DNA from: Zavarzinia marina
GTDB taxonomy: Bacteria > Pseudomonadota > Alphaproteobacteria > Zavarziniales > Zavarziniaceae
Direction: 5' to 3'
NCBI RefSeq assembly: GCF_021568905.1
Contig: NZ_JAKGSB010000002.1
Span: 124,001-188,000 of the forward strand
DNA length: 64,000 bases
Shown in pieces: positions 8,345 through 9,019 of the stretch; the first letter of the stretch is position 1; every line of letters begins with the position of its first letter. The position numbers were made by a program, and so were the translations under genes. The notes beneath the pieces are model-generated. The model did no database searches and had not been told where the DNA came from. It saw nothing but the letters and a program-made list of their open reading frames with translations.

Positions 8345-8815
8345 TCAGGCGGCGGCCTGATGCTCGATCCGCGGGCCGGCGACGGCGGCGCCGGTCTCGA
8401 TCGCGATCTGGCGCGGCTTCTTCGCTTCCGGCACCTCGCGCACGAGATCGACGTGCAGCAGGCCGTTCTCGAACGACGCATTCACGACCTTGATGGTATC
8501 GGCAAGCTCGAAGCGGCGCTCGAAGGCGCGGGCGGCGATGCCGCGATGCAGATACTGGACCTCGGCCTTGTCCTCGCGGCCCTTGCCGGCGATGACGAGG
8601 ACATTCTCGTTCACGGTCACGTCGAGTTGGTCGGGGGCGAAGCCGGCGACGGCCATGGTGATGCGGTACTTGTCCTCGCCCGCCTTCTCGATGTTGTAGG
8701 GCGGATAGGACGTGGCGGCCTCGTCGACGCGGGCGGCGGCATCGAGCAGGCGCGAGACCCGGTCGAAACCGATGGTGGAACGCATCAGGGGCGAAAAATC
8801 AAAGGCAGAGCGCAT
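8345..8815 (-). CDS. Hsp20/alpha-crystallin small heat-shock protein
   Basis: A 156-residue IbpA-type small heat-shock protein. The short N-terminal arm (MRSAFDFSPLMRSTIGFDRV) is followed by the alpha-crystallin domain (about 35-130: YPPYNIEK, YRITMAVAGF, AFERRFELADTIKVVNASFENGLLHVDL) and a C-terminal tail. These ATP-independent chaperones hold unfolding proteins during heat stress. The ATG at 8815 has GGAGAA upstream; the longer frame to 8947 reads through the leader and is rejected. The leader can hide this ribosome site in a ROSE-like hairpin. No sigma-32 promoter was confidently identified. Confidence 0.9.
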   Translation of the reverse strand: MRSAFDFSPLMRSTIGFDRVSRLLDAAARVDEAATSYPPYNIEKAGEDKYRITMAVAGFAPDQLDVTVNENVLVIAGKGREDKAEVQYLHRGIAARAFERRFELADTIKVVNASFENGLLHVDLVREVPEAKKPRQIAIETGAAVAGPRIEHQAAA

Positions 8816-8820
8816 CGCAA

Positions 8821-8835
8821 TTCTCCATTGAGCAA
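8821..8835 (-). promoter_or_regulatory. ROSE-like RNA thermometer hairpin at the hsp20 ribosome site
   Basis: The minus-strand leader reads TTGCTCAATGGAGAA just before the ATG. UU-CUC can pair with the GAGAA of the ribosome-binding site, leaving a single bulged G in UUGCU. That is the layout of the 3' hairpin of ROSE thermometers, which repress rhizobial and other small heat-shock genes at low temperature. GC-rich segments further upstream (to about 8905) could form the accessory stems. Confidence 0.5.
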
Positions 8836-8961
8836 CGGCGAGTTTCGTCATGCGGCCATCCCCCCGAAGCCCGGGCGGGATCGCGCGCCGAGCCCCGTCG
8901 CGGGCACCCGGCACCAATGGATTTAAGGGCTGCGGCCCGGGCTTCAAGAGGCCCTGGAACG

Positions 8962-8987
8962 AAAAAAGGCGGCCCCGCGGGACCGCC
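8962..8987 (-). terminator. Rho-independent terminator of rpmE
   Basis: On the minus strand, GGCGGTCCC and GGGGCCGCC pair (9 bp with one G-T pair, 2-base loop) and are followed by TTTTTT. It lies about 33 bases past the L31 stop. Confidence 0.9.
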
Positions 8988-9019
8988 CTTTCACGAACGC
9001 CGCCGGTCGCGGCGCGGCC

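Follow-up and report, generated by a model that had tools for sequence, protein, structure and literature searches.

The hsp20 locus and its leader

The window (the whole stretch of 64,000 nt of Zavarzinia marina DNA that was analysed) carries on its minus strand a small heat-shock gene, hsp20 (8348–8815; ATG at 8815–8813, stop codon at 8345–8347). Its 156-aa product matched Pfam HSP20 with 73.7 bits, and the leader of this gene is hence that of a small heat-shock gene, which is where ROSE elements are expected. Among the NCBIfam models, the product came closest to IbpA and IbpB but stayed under the cut-off of each. Its three nearest named orthologues are Zavarzinia proteins with 87–88% identity. 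A search for Zavarzinia and heat shock found no paper in the library consulted.

Along the minus strand, rpmE (Ribosomal_L31) is followed by a probable intrinsic terminator, a promoter-like sequence (CTTGAA-14-CCTTAAAT), a leader of ~100 nt and hsp20. The probable rpmE terminator is located between rpmE and hsp20 at 8990–8962; it folds into a hairpin with −19.3 kcal/mol and has a T run at 8967–8962. Simple promoter and terminator scans reported nothing, including this terminator. The putative promoter (8948–8921, minus strand) was recognized by eye: CTTGAA (8948–8943) is separated by 14 nt from CCTTAAAT (8928–8921), and we call it σ32-like for its resemblance to the σ32 consensus. CTTG was present at −150 to −91 in 88 of the 106 class leaders that are described below, as compared with 20% in shuffles.

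From this promoter, the hsp20 transcript would start at ~8915, just before the first helix of the leader, so the leader with its ROSE-type element would occupy 8915–8816 on the minus strand. A sequence-only reading of the window had placed a ROSE-like RNA thermometer at 8816–8905. We observed that this span does hold the leader element, but it is slightly short, as the consensus structure begins at 8912.

The Shine–Dalgarno hairpin and its folding as a single sequence

ROSE elements have a U(U/C)GCU motif that pairs imperfectly with the Shine–Dalgarno (SD) sequence in the 3′ hairpin. In the window, the motif is UUGCUC (TTGCTC in the DNA, 8835–8830, minus strand), which faces the SD sequence GGAGAA (8826–8821, minus strand); GGAG is present in all seven leaders of the bacterial family. 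The UU-G-CUC opposite GAGAA with one bulged G (8833), as described in the sequence-only reading, is therefore present at these positions. The 3′ hairpin as a whole (8841–8815, minus strand) is made of a UCGC/GCGA outer stem and the UU(G)CUC/GAGAA core, and it includes the A of the start codon. The motif, the consensus fold and the class covariation described below all point to this hairpin, while single-sequence folding is ambiguous. Deleting the bulged G in silico lowered the folding energy of the hairpin at 37°C (−7.7 kcal/mol with the G, −11.5 kcal/mol without it). This stabilization by 3.8 kcal/mol fits with the bulged G being a built-in weak point, as would be expected.

The isolated SD hairpin folded as UU(G)CUC/GAGAA at 20–55°C, and the leader extended to 8800 formed two GC-rich helices and the bulged-G SD hairpin at 20–42°C. 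In the segment 8914–8810, none of the five core pairs appeared in the minimum-energy fold at any of the five temperatures. A rival fold of this segment (minus strand) is without the ROSE core and lies 1.4–1.8 kcal/mol below the ROSE fold. The rank of the two folds depended strongly on the 3′ end of the segment. The mean core-pair probability at 37°C was 0.05 with the 3′ end at 8810; with the ends at 8800, 8790, 8770 and 8816 it was 0.65, 0.38, 0.40 and 0.31, respectively.

Folding at 25 and 42°C had been proposed as a check, and its outcome was divided: in the segment 8914–8800 the core weakened on warming (mean core-pair probability 0.89 at 25°C, 0.49 at 42°C), whereas it was missing from the minimum-energy fold when the segment ended at 8810. 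The ROSE core was found in the minimum-energy folds of four of the seven family leaders (G001, G002, G003 and G004) and was absent in the 105-nt segment of the window, G005 and G006. Short hairpin segments were predicted to open little between 25 and 48°C, for the window and for three Rfam-positive Bradyrhizobium hairpins alike. Temperature folding is not decisive as a discriminator, short and longer segments giving mixed answers. As single-sequence folding is ambiguous, the case rests on comparison and not on single folds.

Compensatory changes in the leaders of the family

We aligned seven leaders from the same bacterial family, six of them from the genus of the window and one (G006) from a second genus. 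RNAalifold yielded 33 pairs, of which eight were changed on both sides. These lie in helix I (8912–8887, minus strand; 11 pairs, loop CGA) and helix II (8881–8858, minus strand; nine pairs), with four double-changed pairs in each. The suggestion that the GC-rich upstream sequence could supply further stems was borne out by these two helices. ROSE leaders are composed of two to four hairpins, and here helices I and II, having compensatory changes, precede the 3′ hairpin. The consensus fold also contains a possible closing helix (8854–8811, minus strand) of CGCA (8854–8851) with UGCG (8814–8811), which includes the UG of the start codon; its four pairs are invariant, and it is therefore neither supported nor opposed.

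In this structure 97.8% of the cells were paired, as against 92.8% in shuffled and 38–52% in slid alignments. Double-change cells numbered 13, compared with 5.0 in the shuffled and 0–2 in the slid ones. The slide control leans in favour of the structure, because the structure was derived from the same seven sequences. Within the seven leaders the SD core showed no covariation, being nearly invariant, and all the double changes were in helices I and II. Alignment of relatives' leaders had been put forward as a way of checking the thermometer, and it did reveal compensatory changes (eight of 33 pairs) in the family, while class-wide they fell mostly in the flanking stem of the SD hairpin.

Covariance-model searches

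Next, a covariance model (R1) was built from the seven family leaders and run over 54 sources. At E ≤ 1 it matched 23 of the 45 non-training orthologue loci, and each match was at the hsp20 start. It also matched the seven training loci, with the window match at 8810–8914 (107 bits); these matches are by construction, as the leaders are the training sequences. Two loci of the window's own genome around other hsp20 genes (L001 and L003) gave no match with R1. In six whole Zavarzinia genomes, R1 found the one leader in each (all of them training sequences), and extra matches were seen in G004 at the start of a second hsp20 gene (weak, E 0.24) and in G005 (E 6.8). A search of 80 leaders at E ≤ 10 gave 92 matches, some weak ones being on the wrong strand or off register; these were left out of the counts.

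The Rfam ROSE model, RF00435, matched the window over its full length (8809–8911, model positions 1–94) with 18.4 bits. The proposed covariance-model search thus does place a ROSE match at the hsp20 leader, but a sub-threshold one: the gathering score is 45 bits, and for this reason the element is not filed under the curated Rfam set. In the whole-genome search, 150 of 347 candidates were scored, and no match other than the hsp20 leader (E 4.66) was listed at E ≤ 10. The RF00435 score alone is not significant; its position is what counts. The hsp20 leader was the best whole-genome match in G002 and G006 too, and in G001 and G003 it was not among the matches listed. When the seven family loci were scanned, matches at E ≤ 10 were confined to G002 and G006. 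Of 14 control genomes, three (two of which are not proteobacteria) had a match at E ≤ 10, and none was above the cut-off. Three of the four Bradyrhizobium genomes used as positive controls exceeded it with 45.2–56.2 bits, and so the search works.

With cmscan, none of 60 related loci (the window's L004 included) reached 45 bits, the best being 41.9 bits; despite these scores the motif was present in 55 of the 60, which comprised three sets of 20, one of them hand-picked after the leaders had been inspected. RF00435 had no match at E ≤ 0.001 over 41 relatives, in a search with strict filters and no positive control that is uninformative on absence. Two sub-threshold RF00435 matches with 25.5 bits each, G002:C8:1422-1531 and G002:C11:12240-12349, lie off the hsp20 leader in a single Zavarzinia genome and are possibly a repeat. 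Sub-threshold Rfam matches to CC2171, Xoo2 and others near rpmE were taken as chance or terminator-driven.

Conservation of the motif across the class

We searched 192 genomes of the class, where at least 150 had a protein match, and sampled a single leader per genome from 107 that lie outside the genus of the window. This sampling favours the stronger matches; left out were second copies, most of the weaker-match genomes and the top hits of G140, G106 and G095. By the rule used, 106 of the 107 had an ATG; L167 was dropped for having none, though the motif is present there. U(U/C)GCU was found within 18 nt 5′ of the SD sequence in 99 of the 106 orthologue leaders, as against 0, 0, 1, 2 and 2 of 106 at five more distant 18-nt positions and 2.6% in mononucleotide shuffles. 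Of the seven remaining leaders, two carry CCGCU, three carry ACGCU and two are without any such motif. In the three lineages with ACGCU (L195, L201 and L203), ACGCU opposite GGAGGU replaces UYGCU opposite GGAGGA, so that the first core pair has been exchanged with compensation.

We then counted standard pairs at six positions of the hairpin (two core and four flanking) in 104 anchored sequences, and observed 529 against 433 expected. Other registers ranged from nine below to five above expectation, with one exception at 18 below, so the excess is in the ROSE register only. Shuffle tests can be inflated by the kinship of the sequences, and this register control guards against that. The strongest covarying pairs were flanking ones (86 versus 59.3 and 76 versus 47.5 expected). 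The core pair U1–A6 was formed in 97 sequences versus 91.7 in shuffles (p 0.0005). For Y2 with SD position 5 the numbers were 102 versus 99.4 (p 0.06, not significant, 104 anchored sequences), and Fisher's test on Y and the fifth SD base by themselves likewise gave no significance (p 0.13). A single bulged G was present in the minimum-energy fold of 91 of the 104 excised class hairpins. Judged from the sequences, the observed pairing is more than chance. The comparison suggests that compensatory change has preserved the ROSE core, including its bulged G, throughout the class, whereas the remainder of the leader has diverged too far for the standard model to recognize.

A second tier of hsp20 matches (L207–L240) had UYGCU near the SD sequence in 23 of 34 leaders, often with a CUCGCUC core, whereas at four other positions it occurred in only one or two of the 34. 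The bulged G was seen in 19 of the 23 folds. This tier is defined by score only; seven of its 34 members come from the family of the window, and it holds the best match for G039, G149 and G048. UYGCU near the SD sequence was absent in the second-tier copies of the window's genome (L229) and of two other Zavarzinia (L227 and L239).

We consider it fairly probable that the ROSE element is ancestral and nearly universal on alphaproteobacterial IbpA-type sHSP genes (99 of 106 leaders plus the three compensated ACGCU/GGAGGU ones), that a variant of it occurs on second-tier hsp20 genes (23 of 34) but has been lost in places, for example in the window's genome, and that the Rfam cut-off hides most of these elements.

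The hsp20 leader as a probable ROSE-type thermometer

The conserved motif, the compensatory changes in the seven leaders and the class covariation support the ROSE-like thermometer that the sequence-only reading had proposed for the hsp20 leader. The two observations named there as counting against it did not arise: relatives do show compensatory changes, and the transcription start predicted from the promoter would lie before helix I and not inside the hairpin. We therefore regard the leader of the window, with high confidence, as a ROSE-type RNA thermometer, its response to temperature being deduced from the known family. In the mechanism that we propose, the hsp20 mRNA would begin ~100 nt 5′ of the start codon at a presumed heat-shock (σ32-like) promoter. 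Two GC-rich helices would form 5′ of the SD hairpin, and in the 3′ hairpin UU(G)CUC would pair with the SD sequence, in a stem that is made weaker by an internal mismatch and the bulged G. By analogy with ROSE elements (PMC3669281 and PMC4166951), the closed hairpin would block ribosome binding at growth temperature. On warming, as in the known family, the hairpin is expected to open and the sHSP to be made.

It is also conceivable, though improbable, that the leader lowers translation constitutively, through either this hairpin or the rival fold, with heat control residing wholly in the σ32-like promoter. The rival fold is within ~2 kcal/mol, folding of short segments showed no sharp melting, CTTG is common at promoter distance, and the window hairpin exceeds the class median in stability (−8.5 kcal/mol at 37°C versus −6.2 kcal/mol, for slightly different segments), all of which would suit such a constitutive effect. 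However, constitutive repression needs neither the conserved UYGCU (99 of 106) nor the bulged G (91 of 104 folds), and ROSE-like leaders with the same motif were thermoresponsive in the experiments described in PMC3669281. We reject, as very unlikely indeed, that the conserved leader is the start of the reading frame with incidental pairing. An upstream ATG at 8851 does share its frame with hsp20, an equally distant one occurs in G002, and G004, G005 and G006 have in-frame ATGs that are differently spaced. Only two of the seven leaders, however, have an ATG at the distance seen in the window and two have none, the SD sequence and the 8815 ATG are conserved in all seven, and the changes in the leader preserve pairs.

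The probable thermometer of the window is an ordinary member of the known ROSE kind, too divergent for the Rfam cut-off. The findings suggest that the Rfam ROSE family could be broadened. The natural variants UU/GAGAA, UC/GAGGA and AC/GAGGU offer material for studying what the bulge and the individual pairs contribute to the melting temperature.

Comparison with known ROSE systems

According to PMC4166951, which cites the survey of Waldminghaus 2005, more than 40 ROSE elements have been predicted in alpha- and gamma-proteobacteria. PMC3989490 and PMC5756330 describe ROSE on class A sHSP genes of M. loti and an Rfam-predicted ROSE before an hsp20 gene of Gluconobacter oxydans, respectively. Compared with the ROSE1 type of RF00435 and Bradyrhizobium hspA, the window has in common the sHSP gene, a multi-hairpin leader of ~95–100 nt, a GC-rich first hairpin, and UUGCUC opposite the SD sequence with one bulged G. 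It differs in its SD sequence, which is GGAGAA instead of GGAGGA, so that the second core pair is U–A, and in its RF00435 score (18.4 bits versus 45.2–56.2 bits in three of the four Bradyrhizobium control genomes). With the short ROSE-like elements of Pseudomonas ibpA, as given in PMC3669281, it shares the U(U/C)GCU/SD core and the IbpA-type gene. The ibpA promoter is described there as σ32-dependent, whereas that of the window is σ32-like only by eye. The Pseudomonas thermometers consist of two hairpins in 61–62 nt, while the window has two upstream helices and the SD hairpin in ~100 nt.
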